Virus record (IMG/VR): IMGVR_UViG_3300037882_001160 | Coordinates: 1-28,893 of that record | Length of the DNA: 28,893 nt | Source: a virus | Direction: 5' to 3' (one strand) | Part shown: in pieces, positions 10,546 to 24,252 of the stretch | Layout: every line of letters starts with the position of its first letter | How positions within the stretch are numbered: position 1 is the stretch's first letter | Translations under genes and position numbers: made by a program | Notes under the pieces: generated by a model | Told to the model about the DNA's origin: nothing | Databases searched by the model: none | The model's input: only the letters and a program-made list of their open reading frames with translations

Positions 10546-11010
10546 CTAAAAGCCAAAAGGGTCTAAATCTCTTGGAAGACTATTTACTACAAAGGGTGAA
10601 GTATTATTCAAGTTTATAGCTGCACCTTCAACAGGAATTGACTTCTCTACTTTCACATAATTATTATCAGAATCAGCCATATTGGCATTTATACCAGAAA
10701 GACTGATACCTCCTGCGTAAGGAGTCGCCATTGATACTGAGCCATACTCAGGATTCTTGACGTACATAATCAAAGCTTCTTTATATTGCCTGAAGTAGTC
10801 AGAACCTTTATAAGCCAACACATCCACTTCTTCATTCGTCATTGAAGCTAATTTAAATAAGATTGTCTTAGCCACATCTAAAGATGTTTTACGAATAGAG
10901 TTATTATTTTTTTCTAAGAAATATTCATATTCTTCGTCAGATAGTAAAGGAAATACTACATCAGTGTCAGACAACTCGGTGCGTACCATTTGTATAGGTG
11001 TCATTGGCAT
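10546..11010 (-). CDS. Head-tail adaptor (gp6-like connector)
   Basis: The start MPMTPIQMVRTELSDTDVVF with LLSDEEYEYFLEKN is typical of gp6-like adaptors, which dock a ring of alpha-helical subunits under the portal. I place the start at the ATG at 11010 (or 11004) because the longer frame begins with a GTG that overlaps the AAAGGAG site itself. The ATG at 11004 overlaps the stop of the homing endonuclease (ATGA), so the two are probably translationally coupled. The gene ends in TAG, one of several genes here showing that TAG is an ordinary stop in this phage. Length is about 154 residues. Confidence 0.75.
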   Translation of the reverse strand: MPMTPIQMVRTELSDTDVVFPLLSDEEYEYFLEKNNNSIRKTSLDVAKTILFKLASMTNEEVDVLAYKGSDYFRQYKEALIMYVKNPEYGSVSMATPYAGGISLSGINANMADSDNNYVKVEKSIPVEGAAINLNNTSPFVVNSLPRDLDPFGF

Positions 11011-11966
11011 TTGGTTTCCCACTCCTTTAATATCTTGTCTGCAATATCTCGCTTTCGAGCAAGAAAAGTTATCGAATCTTTGTATAAAACTTTTAAAATT
11101 TTTCTACAGTTTTCACCACAAAATGTTACAGAATACAGAAACAAGTTGTTTTTGGTAGTTTTTACTTTTCTAAGTTTTGGCTTAAAAATAACACCACAGT
11201 ATTTCTCAGAAAAATCAATAAAAGATTCAATTATTTCCGAAGATCCGCAAAGGGATATCTGAGAGCTATTGTTTTTTGCTAATCTTATGTGCCCATCTCC
11301 ATCAATAACACCTCTCCAAAAGTGATTAGAAGACAGAAAAGATTTTTCTTTAACAGACTCTTTTAGACTTTTTCTTGTTGAAAATCCAAAAGAAACGCAA
11401 TCCATGACTGGCTTTCCTGAAAAAGAAAACGAACAACTTTTGTATGTTTTTCCTGTTCTTTTGTCAAATCTATCGTAGTATCGAATGTTGTTATCAGAAC
11501 GTAAAAACTGTTTCAACTTTTCAATTATCTCGTAGTCTGTTTGTTTTAGACTTACACTAATACTAATCAGGTTAGATGTCAGACACCCATCTGCAAGAAG
11601 AAAACCAAAAAAGTAATCTCTTTTTTCACCTTCTTCAGAAAAAGCATTTTCATTGTAATCTTTGTGTAAATAGTCACAGTGATTTTTGTTGCGAATCTCT
11701 ATACCTCTAACTTTTAGTAGACGCAAAACAGTATCACTGCTGACACCAAAAGATTTTGCAATCAGATACGAGTTAGTACCTTTTACATATTCGTCACAAA
11801 CGATTTCAATTTGATTAGGTGTAAAACTGATCGGCTTATTTTTTACTACAAGGCCAGAAAGATTGTGCTTTTTTATCGAGTCTAAGCAAGAGGAAATGTT
11901 AATTCCCAGTATTAGACATATTTCTGTAGCTGAATAACCCTTTTTTAAGAGCATCTCTAAAAACAT
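11001..11966 (-). CDS. LAGLIDADG homing endonuclease, free-standing
   Basis: This 321-residue protein has two LAGLIDADG-like helices, FFGFLLADG (119-127) and FWRGVIDGDG (216-225), with catalytic acidic residues D126 and D224. That makes it a single-chain, two-motif enzyme. Two helix-turn-helix-like segments precede them (about 8-35 and 58-88, the second with YLIAKSFGVSSDTVLRLLK). Such enzymes cut DNA lacking the insert and copy themselves by repair. It lies between the intact capsid and adaptor genes, outside any visible intron, and its tail overlaps the adaptor start. The start codon has only a weak GAAG site; an upstream mini-frame (MIYEDKCF) with a better site overlaps it and may limit translation. 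Confidence 0.9.
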   Translation of the reverse strand: MFLEMLLKKGYSATEICLILGINISSCLDSIKKHNLSGLVVKNKPISFTPNQIEIVCDEYVKGTNSYLIAKSFGVSSDTVLRLLKVRGIEIRNKNHCDYLHKDYNENAFSEEGEKRDYFFGFLLADGCLTSNLISISVSLKQTDYEIIEKLKQFLRSDNNIRYYDRFDKRTGKTYKSCSFSFSGKPVMDCVSFGFSTRKSLKESVKEKSFLSSNHFWRGVIDGDGHIRLAKNNSSQISLCGSSEIIESFIDFSEKYCGVIFKPKLRKVKTTKNNLFLYSVTFCGENCRKILKVLYKDSITFLARKRDIADKILKEWETKCQ

Positions 11967-21723: not shown

Positions 21724-21921
21724 GTTGTCCGTTATACCCGTATATCTTACTTATCTGAACTTAAAGCCCGTGAGTATTTAATACAAGAAGATGTACATTT
21801 CAAATTCACGAAAAAAGGTTATGATTTCGGGTACAGTTTATTACACCCAGTGAAGACTTTCCATAAAAACCATTGGAAATGGTTATATGGTGTTTTCTTA
21901 TGGGGTTACTTACAGTATTAA
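21724..21921 (+). pseudogene. Start-less coding-like frame on the opposite strand (remnant A)
   Basis: A 65-codon plus-strand frame without any usable start reads SELKAREYLIQEDVHFKFTK, then GYDFGYSLLHP and KNHWKWLYGVFLWGYLQY before TAA. Aromatic-rich and with a plausible hydrophobic C-terminus, it looks like the 3' end of a gene whose start was lost. It is oriented against the surrounding late genes but in the same sense as the integron-type cassette downstream. The family is unknown. Confidence 0.35.
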
Positions 21922-22014
21922 CCACTCTGTTAGCAAACGTACTACCTGAGAAAATATGCCCAGCACTGCAAAAAATACTAAGTATTTAGTATCACTCCAT
22001 GTATCTTCTTCCAT
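21910..22014 (-). CDS. 34-residue single-pass membrane micro-protein
   Basis: The ATG at 22014 has a strong GGAGG site 6 bases upstream. After an acidic head (MEEDTWSDTK) comes one hydrophobic helix, YLVFFAVLGIFSQVVRLL, and a short WLIL end. Size and form are those of small phage membrane effectors, but nothing links it to lysis directly. It would be inserted in the inner membrane. Its end overlaps remnant A on the other strand by 12 bases. Confidence 0.6.
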   Translation of the reverse strand: MEEDTWSDTKYLVFFAVLGIFSQVVRLLTEWLIL

Positions 22015-22030
22015 AACCACCCTCCATTAA

Positions 22031-22213
22031 ACTAAACTATCTAACTGTAAATTCAAGCAGTGGTTACTTCCAAAAGAGGGTAATGTTTTAGAAGTTGATG
22101 GAACCTTCTGGAAAGTGGTTTCTATCGAAATCCCTTACAAAGCAGACTTCCACCCTAAAATTTATCTAACACCTGTTCCAAACTACTTAGAATATCTTGA
22201 ATCTCTTGTCTAG
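22031..22213 (+). pseudogene. Start-less coding-like frame on the opposite strand (remnant B)
   Basis: A 60-codon plus-strand frame reads KFKQWLLPKEGNVLEVDGTF, then WKVVSIEIPYKADFHP and KIYLTPVPNYLEYLES before TAG. It has no ATG, GTG or TTG in a sensible place. Its 3' third overlaps the minus-strand gene at 22155-22388. The alternating hydrophobic pattern suggests real former coding. Together with remnant A and attC1 it may mark a decayed cassette upstream of the intact one; this is inference. Confidence 0.3.
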
Positions 22214-22388
22214 GAATTATATTCAGATCTTTTTCAGGAGAAACCCCAATCCAAGTTAGAATTTCAGGAACATCACTTCTATAAACGTGCCGACTGTTTG
22301 GGGTAACAATAACAGCCTTCACTTTTCCATAACTTGTGTTTTTCCCTTGATACTCTACTACTCGGTTATCTTCTGTTAATAAATACAT
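22155..22388 (-). CDS. Small hypothetical protein
   Basis: This 77-residue protein has a near-perfect AGGAGG site 9 bases before its ATG. MYLLTEDNRVVEYQGKNTSY leads into a beta-rich half, and the C-terminal part (PRQEIQDILSSLEQVLDKF) is a helix. Charged and soluble, with no recognised family. It lies just left of the integron-type cassette and may originally have been served by the minus-strand promoter at 23251-23279, now about 860 bases away across the cassette. Confidence 0.65.
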   Translation of the reverse strand: MYLLTEDNRVVEYQGKNTSYGKVKAVIVTPNSRHVYRSDVPEILTWIGVSPEKDLNIIPRQEIQDILSSLEQVLDKF

Positions 22389-22417
22389 ATTTTATTACCT
22401 CCTAATTAATTTAAATT

Positions 22418-22474
22418 GTGTAACAAGTCGGTGAAACGGATAACCTTCGGTTTCCGCTTAACTAATCGTTAGCC
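22418..22474 (+). other. attC-type recombination site 1
   Basis: The outer cores GTGTAAC (22418-22424) and GTTAGCC (22468-22474) enclose an imperfect palindrome. GTGAAACGGATAACC (22431-22445) pairs, with bulged bases, to GGTTTCCGCTTAAC (22449-22462) around a short loop. The TAACAA start, CCGCTTAAC...GTTAG end, length of 57 bases and extrahelical bases are the standard anatomy of integron attC sites. IntI recombinases cut such folded single strands between G and TT in the right core. Confidence 0.75.
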
Positions 22475-22502
22475 CTCTCATCTTTAATTTACGGAACCCG
22501 CC

Positions 22503-22958
22503 ATGTCTCCAAGCGAAAAACAAGATTTCTTGATGAAACTGGTCGTTAAACACTCCGATGAAAGGAGGCTTGGTTCCGTAGATATTGTCAAAGTTATTCT
22601 CTCAATCGTCTCTGTTCTTCTAACCGTACTTGCAACAATAGAAGTCCTGCCTCGCCAAGAAATGTCCCTTTGCTCGCTTCCCTTGCAATTTCTTGCACGA
22701 ATTTGTACGTATCCACTTCTTCTGTCTTGCTGTGCGGTTTGTGTGTATCACCTCTACTACACCCTGAATCAGTACAACACCAAGATGGCCCTCCTTGTGA
22801 GCACTGCTCTTGATAATTGCGACAGTTTTGAATCTGCCTACGATTATCTGAAGAAGAACAATACAATCGACCACCCTTGGCTTTACAAGAAGTCTCTTCT
22901 GATAATTTTTGCGTTGTTCGGTCTTTCTCTTCTGGTAATTCTCTTACGCGTACCGTGA
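22503..22958 (+). CDS. Cassette-borne three-helix membrane protein
   Basis: This 151-residue protein opens with a charged cytoplasmic head (MSPSEKQDFLMKLVVKHSDE). Three hydrophobic helices follow: VDIVKVILSIVSVLLTVLAT (about 27-46), a Cys-rich one around FLARICTYPLLLSCCAVCVY (63-82), and KKSLLIIFALFGLSLLVILL (128-147). A soluble loop lies between the last two. No strong ribosome site precedes the ATG, common for cassette genes. Carried by an integron-type cassette and facing against the late genes, it may be an accessory such as an exclusion or stress protein; no family is recognised. An overlapping minus-strand frame (22594-22974) is taken as its shadow. Confidence 0.7.
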   Translation: MSPSEKQDFLMKLVVKHSDERRLGSVDIVKVILSIVSVLLTVLATIEVLPRQEMSLCSLPLQFLARICTYPLLLSCCAVCVYHLYYTLNQYNTKMALLVSTALDNCDSFESAYDYLKKNNTIDHPWLYKKSLLIIFALFGLSLLVILLRVP

Positions 22959-22981
22959 TTTCAAATTCCCTCATTTAAGCG

Positions 22982-23003
22982 TCTCCATATAATCTCCATA
23001 TAA
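22982..23003. repeat. Tandem 11-base repeat before attC2
   Basis: TCTCCATATAA occurs twice in immediate succession (22982-22992 and 22993-23003), between the cassette gene and attC2. It looks like a small slippage duplication. Confidence 0.85.
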
Positions 23004-23006
23004 TCG

Positions 23007-23066
23007 GGCTAACAAATCATTCAAGGCGGAATGGCTTACACCAGTCGCTTAATTCAGACGTTAGTA
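23007..23066 (+). other. attC-type recombination site 2
   Basis: Left core GGCTAAC (23007-23013), a 5-base spacer, an inner arm ATTCAAGGCG, then the matching arm CGCTTAATT, spacer CAGAC and right core GTTAG (23060-23064) make a 60-base site. It reads almost like textbook 59-base elements, with the usual extrahelical G in the left arm (AAGGCG against CGCTT). Orientation agrees with the cassette gene. The next bases, TATATAAGG, would be the start of a following cassette or phage DNA. Confidence 0.85.
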
Positions 23067-23122
23067 TATAAGGCTGCTTACCACAATGCAGGGTGTATTC
23101 GGATATATCAAGGAGGTAATAT

Positions 23123-23185
23123 ATGTACACGGAAGTACGTCAATCATTAACTTTTAAACAGAGGAGCTTCCCGCGAGGCCATTAG
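23123..23185 (+). CDS. Possible 20-residue mini-gene behind attC2
   Basis: An excellent AAGGAGG site lies 7 bases before ATG at 23123, starting a 20-codon frame (MYTEVRQSLTFKQRSFPRGH) that ends in TAG. Basic and without hydrophobic run, it could be a leader peptide or the 5' end of a gene cut short by a frameshift: another frame continues with AISHTWSLWSRNILF. The ribosome site is the main support. Confidence 0.3.
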   Translation: MYTEVRQSLTFKQRSFPRGH

Positions 23186-23310: not shown

Positions 23311-23817
23311 TTAACAAGGAGGTATTCCTCCAAGTTCTATAATTGTACGTTTATAATCCAAAACTAACCCATCTCTAAACTCTTTTGCTTTATAAAAGTC
23401 AAAGTATCTATTTGAGATTACTTTACCTTTATCTAAATACTTAACAATAAAGGCATCAGATACTTCAAGATTTGTTTTTATTGAACAATACTTCATTAAA
23501 TTTTTATAACTTAATAAAAGCAAGTAGTGATCTTCTTTTGTTATTTCGATAAGATTACTTAATCTTAAATTATATTTATTAAAATCTTTATTAAATATTA
23601 TTTTTTTACTAAAATAACCAAAGCAAAGTAACCAAATCAATTGATTAACTGGGATAGTCATACTTTTTTTATTTATACTAAGGTTTGTTCTTAATGCAGA
23701 AGAACTACTATCTAAAGCAGTTAGTCTATTTGTACTATTTCTAATCAATGAACCATCTATTGCAGAGTAAGTAAATAATTCCTTTACTTGCTTCTGCGTT
23801 AGTTCTTTATAATTCAT
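23311..23817 (-). CDS. HNH-type protein with lost catalytic residues
   Basis: This 168-residue protein keeps the frame of phage HNH proteins: KELFTYSAIDGSLI at the start, NQLIWLLCFGYFSKK (58-72), then IIFNKDFNKYNLRLSNLIEI (73-92). In active relatives the pattern is about HRLIW...IDHINxDKxDNRxSNLREV. Here the key His positions read N58 and N76, Asp75-equivalent is Phe, and the later Asn is Leu, so nuclease activity is unlikely. The protein may only bind DNA. AGGAGG precedes its ATG, and its 350-base leader contains operator-like repeats. It ends close to the minus promoter at 23251-23279. Confidence 0.6.
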   Translation of the reverse strand: MNYKELTQKQVKELFTYSAIDGSLIRNSTNRLTALDSSSSALRTNLSINKKSMTIPVNQLIWLLCFGYFSKKIIFNKDFNKYNLRLSNLIEITKEDHYLLLLSYKNLMKYCSIKTNLEVSDAFIVKYLDKGKVISNRYFDFYKAKEFRDGLVLDYKRTIIELGGIPPC

Positions 23818-23830
23818 ATCCCTCCTTAAT

Positions 23831-23964
23831 ATATTACTTTATTAATATATTATTTATATAATATTACTTTATTAATATTTATAGTATAAATACTATACTC
23901 CTGAGATTTCAAGCAAACCAATCCCTACCTTATTAGGTTACAACTAAGTAAGCTAATAAAGTAA
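23831..23964. repeat. Operator-like repeats in leader of the HNH-type gene
   Basis: The 18-base ATATTACTTTATTAATAT occurs at 23831-23848 and 23861-23878 as exact direct repeats with a 30-base period. Its core reappears inverted as TAATAAAGTAA at 23954-23964, beside the plus-strand promoter at 23968. Repeats of this kind next to opposing promoters suggest protein-binding sites; AT-richness alone could produce some similarity. Confidence 0.6.
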
Positions 23965-23967
23965 AGA

Positions 23968-23996
23968 TTGACAGTTTACTTGAATCAGGATATACT
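23968..23996 (+). promoter_or_regulatory. Sigma70-type promoter, plus strand, facing the 24168-24196 promoter
   Basis: TTGACA (23968-23973), 17-base spacer, TATACT (23991-23996). Transcription would run rightwards into the stretch 24003-24160, which has no gene but forms hairpins such as GATGC-TTTC-GCATC and TTACGG/CCGTAA, and would collide with transcripts from the minus promoter. Confidence 0.65.
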
Positions 23997-24002
23997 CCCT
24001 CG

Positions 24003-24160
24003 AATCCAAGACGTTCATAACGCAGTTGCTGTTCCTAGAGTGCCGTCAAGCTATACTTGATTCGCCAACATCTAAGTCCCTACCCCAACAACCGATGCTT
24101 TCGCATCACCATAAGGCCGGATTTACGGAATTGCACCGTAAGTCAAAAAAGACTCTACCG
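24003..24160. ncRNA. Gene-free structured stretch between convergent promoters
   Basis: No coding frame is convincing. Inverted repeats include TCAAG/CTTGA near 24048-24062, GATGC/GCATC near 24094-24107 (a GAAA tetraloop when read on the minus strand) and TTACGG/CCGTAA near 24123-24141. The stretch is transcribed from either side (promoters at 23968 and 24196), so it could be a small regulatory RNA, or the leader of the HNH-type gene with an antisense partner. A tRNA fold was tried and did not fit. Confidence 0.4.
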
Positions 24161-24167
24161 AAAGAAT

Positions 24168-24196
24168 ATTGTAGCATGTAATTTTAATTTTGTCAA
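24168..24196 (-). promoter_or_regulatory. Sigma70-type promoter for the HNH-type gene
   Basis: On the minus strand TTGACA (24196-24191), 17-base spacer and TACAAT (24173-24168). It would produce a leader of about 340 bases before the HNH-type gene start at 23817. It points away from the plus promoter at 24442, giving a divergent control region. Confidence 0.78.
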
Positions 24197-24252
24197 TGGG
24201 TAATTTAAAATAATTTATTAAATTATTAGTTTCCATTTAAAGGGCCTAGGTT

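Follow-up and report, generated by a model that had tools for sequence, protein, structure and literature searches.

CALINs, defined by at least two close attC sites with no integron integrase nearby, have already been described in phages. A screen of 10,705 phage genomes yielded 17 CALINs, distributed among virulent and temperate phages as well as uncharacterised ones, with TJE1, P12002L and PH101 as examples, and IntI1 was able to use five of the six phage attC sites tested (Qi et al. 2023, PMC9892861). In these published loci, cassette genes are accompanied by two attC sites or more and by no integrase, within a tailed-phage genome. The bacterial counterpart is the proteobacterial cassette of the Xanthomonadales or class-1-like kind, whose attC of about 60 bp follows the succession TAAC-N5-TTCAAG ... 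CTTAA ... GTTRG, with an R'' box matching the start of its own cassette.

The locus presented here, contained in the IMG/VR record IMGVR_UViG_3300037882_001160 (28,893 nucleotides, analysed in its entirety and referred to below as the window), shares all these characters with the phage CALINs of Qi et al., including the single direction of the cassettes displayed by TJE1 and PH101. It differs from them by the phage lineage and the cassette gene, which are both new, by the presence of a single complete cassette and by weaker sites, and it is known here from sequence alone. With respect to the proteobacterial cassettes, whose general site layout, size and R'' rule are conserved, the phage stems are partly mismatched and AT-richer and the record contains neither attI nor intI. 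The integron cassette in a phage genome reported by the first-pass annotation is real, but less novel than its description suggested, since phage CALINs, including those of virulent phages with IntI1-active sites, were published in 2023 (PMC9892861). The phenomenon is real and already described, and the present phage is a new, partly decayed example of it.

The phage and its relatives

The virus record is a 28.9-kb fragment of an incomplete phage genome. Terminase, portal, capsid and tape-measure-like genes are located on the minus strand to the left of the cassette, and PhoH and ClpP-like genes are found to its right on the plus strand, together with three tRNAs. The nearest isolate is the Curvibacter phage P26059A (KY981271), which is lytic (PMC5964084) and whose terminase is 68% identical. 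PhoH and ClpP are also divergent from the terminase genes in P26059A, and the homologous terminase, PhoH and ClpP in the same arrangement identify the present phage as P26059A-like. In contrast, the interval between the terminase genes and PhoH/ClpP is occupied in P26059A by unrelated genes devoid of attC. The Limnohabitans phage DC31 (PQ492658), compared by its terminase only, is 47% identical for this protein. Judging from these relatives, the host is probably a member of the Comamonadaceae.

No DNA-level similarity to phage records was detected. The relatives share the gene order and not the intergenic DNA, so that no empty insertion site can be defined among them. The 28.9-kb record, whose genome is incomplete, displays no match to the tyrosine recombinase family PF00589. 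Two close attC sites are present in it with neither intI nor attI, and the locus is therefore classified as a CALIN and not as an integron, although an integrase may exist elsewhere in the genome.

Two further features of the fragment were recorded. In the segments 23311-23817 and 23880-24200, a very AT-rich HNH endonuclease gene of the minus strand is accompanied by non-coding DNA of higher GC content (23980-24160), possibly an intron or a structured-RNA remnant, for which Rfam returned nothing. A LAGLIDADG-like gene (11001-11966) is inserted between structural genes, the following one of which starts within it.

The attC sites and the cassette they delimit

A covariance search for attC, of the kind proposed by the first-pass annotation, was performed using two models built for the purpose. 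R1 was built from 47 attC sites of bacterial genomes and is fixed on the TTCAAG type, while R2 is a broader model comprising 127 more diverse attC sites and trained on sites from viral contigs. A strict pattern was also employed (TAAC, spacer, TCAAG, 8-38 bases, CTTAA, spacer, CGTTRG). The right-hand site, attC2 (23007-23066, plus strand; R'' GGCTAAC, L'' ATTCAAGGCGG, L' CGCTTAATT, R' GTTAGTA), was retrieved by all three: it scores 56.5 bits under R1 (E=1.2e-13) and 46.6 bits under R2 (E=3e-9), the two models concurring despite their respective bacterial and viral-contig training sets, and it provides the only match of the strict pattern in the window (23010-23064), none being obtained in 100 shuffles. 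The left-hand site, attC1 (22418-22474, plus strand; R'' GTGTAAC, L'' GGTGAAACGGA, L' CCGCTTAACT, R' GTTAGCC), was identified by R2 with 26.7 bits, corresponding to E=1.6e-4 when computed over the window and to 6.8e-7 when computed over 121 bases; no other position of the window exceeded 10.3 bits with this model. R1, restricted to the TTCAAG type, fails to recognise attC1 in full for this reason. The R'' boxes of both sites end in TAAC and their R' boxes start with GTTA, as those of attC do. An Rfam search of the window gave no attC match; to our knowledge Rfam holds no attC family, and this result therefore says nothing on attC. Neither R1 nor R2 detected attC in 266 kb of DNA from related phages, so that the comparison with relatives also proposed at first pass shows the sampled ones to be free of such sites.

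The presence of two attC sites in the same orientation bounding one cassette, with a single plus-strand gene at 22503-22958, is thus confirmed as initially reported. The cassette extends over 592 bp on the plus strand (22469-23060), from the G|TT crossover point of attC1 to that of attC2, its limits being the TT of the attC1 R' box (22469) and the G of the attC2 R' box (23060). Its first bases, GTTAGCC, are the exact reverse complement of the attC2 R'' box GGCTAAC, and the R' box of attC2 itself, GTTAGTA, displays no such match. This complementarity, already noticed at first pass, is the commoner situation in bacterial arrays: among 131 pairs of neighbouring bacterial attC sites, a match of R'' to the beginning of the cassette to which it belongs was observed in 96, and a match to the beginning of the following cassette in 42. 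One short open reading frame between attC sites of like orientation, with an R'' box complementary to the start of the unit, identifies the segment as an integron cassette. With their non-matching R' and R'' boxes, both attC sites are hybrids of two units. Because R'' is complementary to the beginning of the cassette to which it belongs and both sites are hybrids, the arrangement would be the work of an integron integrase; such hybrids carry no indication of where the assembly took place. The composition of the cassette is supportive of a foreign origin and not decisive, since its overall GC content of 0.43, against 0.375 for the window, only reaches the 92nd percentile of the latter.

The anatomy of the sites agrees in part with the initial description. 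The spacers of 5 bases are found on the R'' side of both sites and not on the R' side, where they measure 6 nt in attC2 and 4-5 nt in attC1. The announced fit of the inner arms and extrahelical bases holds for attC2, whose L'' and L' boxes, with an extrahelical base, clearly lie at the near-fixed spacing from the R boxes, and holds less closely for attC1, whose L stem contains two mismatches, with an extrahelical base different from the usual one and a spacing one base short. Upon folding of the bottom strand as DNA, the R and L boxes can pair in both sites, but the energies obtained (-6.2 kcal/mol for attC1 and -3.9 kcal/mol for attC2) are weaker than those of about 95% of 203 bacterial attC sites, whose 5th to 95th percentiles range from -19.7 to -8.9 kcal/mol. 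The folding energies of both phage sites are no better than those of shuffles, and the folding z-scores alone give no separation from shuffled sequence, which is provided by the sequence models. Weak folding fits a decay of the sites after capture. It also makes the recombination activity of both sites uncertain, and hence the mobility that the cassette may have retained.

The cassette gene and the remnants to its left

The gene carried by the cassette (22503-22958, plus strand) starts 35 bases into it and encodes a protein of 151 amino acids, predicted to be all-helical with about three hydrophobic segments and belonging to no known family. Its GC3 is 0.46, compared to 0.20-0.40 in 20 phage genes. 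The AlphaFold model computed from this single sequence is entirely helical, with a low-confidence pLDDT of 62.7. Family searches produced no Pfam or PHROG match at 1e-3 and none in PADLOC at useful E-values; a weak PADLOC resemblance to a '2TM effector' (E 0.22) was discarded as it does not constitute evidence. No tblastn match was obtained in plasmids or phages, and a search by peptide pattern revealed no homologue in genome contigs; none was found either in 399 genomes belonging to the order. Integron cassettes commonly contain orphan genes, and homologues in bacterial integrons are usual and not obligatory for them. Our best guess, of low confidence, is that the predicted product could be a membrane protein with a role during infection of the cell, superinfection exclusion being one example. 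The function against competing phages proposed at first pass is speculation.

The region to the left of attC1 contains traces of what may be an older array. The sequence at 22039-22060 (plus strand) has the organization of half an attC site, with R'' ATCTAAC, the 5-nt spacer TGTAA and L'' ATTCAAGCAG. The motif TAAC-N5-NTTCAAG occurs twice in the window, in this half site and in attC2, on the plus strand in both cases, for an expectation of 0.14. Since neither R1 nor R2 scores a full site there, it is regarded only as the probable remnant of a further cassette. The half site starts about 50 bases past the end of a decayed gene (21724-21989, plus strand) whose frame shifts mid-gene and which is possibly an older cassette gene. 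Sequence searches gave no real homologue of this gene; three weak genome matches, located inside frames of about 400 amino acids with no attC nearby, appear to be fortuitous resemblances to a large membrane protein and were set aside. An open frame remnant without start codon (22031-22213, plus strand) is found between the half site and attC1. The position of the half attC after the decayed gene suggests the leftover of a once longer array, which is probable and not certain; if this reading is right, the phage once carried at least two cassettes. The capture of one or more cassettes, as first proposed, is thus borne out by one complete cassette, and by the half site and frameshifted gene as the probable remnant of an older array.

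The left border of attC1 is formed by an open reading frame of 77 amino acids on the minus strand (22155-22388), which is probably a native phage gene in view of its strong ribosome-binding site and phage-like GC3 of 0.24. No homologue was found by peptide-pattern and tblastn searches. The possibility that this gene occupies a cassette of its own was dropped, as no GTTACAC start matching the R'' box of attC1 is present to its left and its composition is phage-like. The start regions GGAGGTAATAAAATATGTA (22385-22402, minus strand) and GGAGGTAATATATGTA (23106-23128, plus strand) form an imperfect inverted repeat on either side of the cassette, which probably corresponds to two similar ribosome-binding sites.

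Origin of the cassette and its significance

The strict attC pattern was found in 48 stretches of IMG/VR contigs, against approximately 0.3 expected by rough arithmetic. Among the attC-bearing viral records, 13 of 47 have a terminase match and eight of these 13 carry three attC sites or fewer; two of the eight, L033 and L071, have the same sites and could represent a single phage. A number of the 48 stretches may be prophages beside chromosomal integrons. Records with many attC sites, up to 17 per record (L041, L055/L060, L057, L063 and others), probably represent integron DNA of the host or prophages adjacent to integrons. One terminase-bearing viral contig (L043, 4163-5272) contains a gene judged by eye to be RtcB-like between two attC-like sites. 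The view of some of the 48 loci as relatives of the present phage is unsupported, as the stretches examined displayed no homology to its marker genes. On the bacterial side, 116 of the 151 genomes of the family of Curvibacter match R2, and a pattern scan found attC in Curvibacter gracilis and in a Comamonadaceae MAG. The family is rich in attC, and a donor pool is therefore at hand in the likely host family. For the cassette gene itself, the searches of bacterial genomes, plasmids and phages returned no homologue.

We regard it as highly likely that the locus, taken as a whole, is a CALIN of captured cassettes in a tailed phage, issued from the host pool and decayed thereafter. This small attC cluster without integrase would occupy the variable interval that separates the packaging genes from PhoH/ClpP, which are divergent from them. 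The cassettes would have been assembled by an integron integrase, as the R'' match to its own start and the hybrid sites suggest, and would have reached the phage from the integron pool of its host. The last step would be either an insertion by host IntI into phage DNA at GTT or the acquisition of a piece of host array by ordinary recombination during infection. The attC sites would then have begun to decay inside the phage, and the predicted membrane protein, by a further guess, would have been kept open, perhaps as a benefit to the phage in the infected cell.

The two routes of the last step cannot be separated here. The uptake of a block of host integron array by illegitimate or homologous recombination, followed by erosion, has slightly under an even chance in our estimation: it accounts for the alignment of more than one attC site, of which the leftmost is truncated and has a frameshifted gene, and it was suggested for several phages by Qi et al. 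(PMC9892861), but no bacterial array with these genes was found. A direct insertion by host IntI during infection, by recombination of attC with an attG-like GTT or with an older attC, is plausible and is put forward slightly more tentatively. It agrees with the R''/R' hybrids at both sites, with the abundance of integrons in the putative host family and with the published role of widespread attG sites as an entry to bacterial genomes (Loot et al. 2024, as cited in PMC11023631, from which this point is taken). However, hybrids tell that IntI built the array and not where, no empty phage site is available and the decay of the left neighbour is just as compatible with block transfer. The initial claim of a capture via host IntI is consequently retained for the captured cassette, which has phage genes on both sides, and not for the direct action of IntI, since block capture of a host array by recombination that is not site-specific fits equally well and no empty site was found.

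An artefactual junction of phage and bacterial integron DNA would be conceivable for a record issued from a metagenome assembly. It is nevertheless very improbable, as phage genes in the P26059A order are found on both sides, the insert is only about 0.6-1.4 kb long and the native-like phage frame with its ribosome-binding site abuts attC1. Hardly any credit can be given to attC sites arising as chance resemblances, or as phage terminators around a native gene, for even if their folding is no better than that of shuffles and similar stem-loops could end transcripts, such an origin is opposed by model E-values of 1e-13 and 1.6e-4, the same orientation, the cassette spacing, the exact R'' match to the cassette start and the lack of such sites in the 266 kb of relatives.

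Within the preferred reading of captured host cassettes, the few phages known to carry cassettes are joined by a freshwater phage of Comamonadaceae type. The locus looks like a post-capture state, with one cassette still open, decaying attC stems and an older cassette already broken, and its cassette gene would represent an unstudied membrane protein kept open by a phage. Together with the 48 attC-bearing viral stretches, this case lends support to a role of phages in carrying cassettes from cell to cell. A broader and rather unlikely proposal is that phages of integron-rich freshwater bacteria repeatedly gain cassettes in their divergent promoter region, directly via the host integron integrase acting at non-attI sites. 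If this were true, such phages would sample the cassette pool of their hosts as accessory genes of their own.
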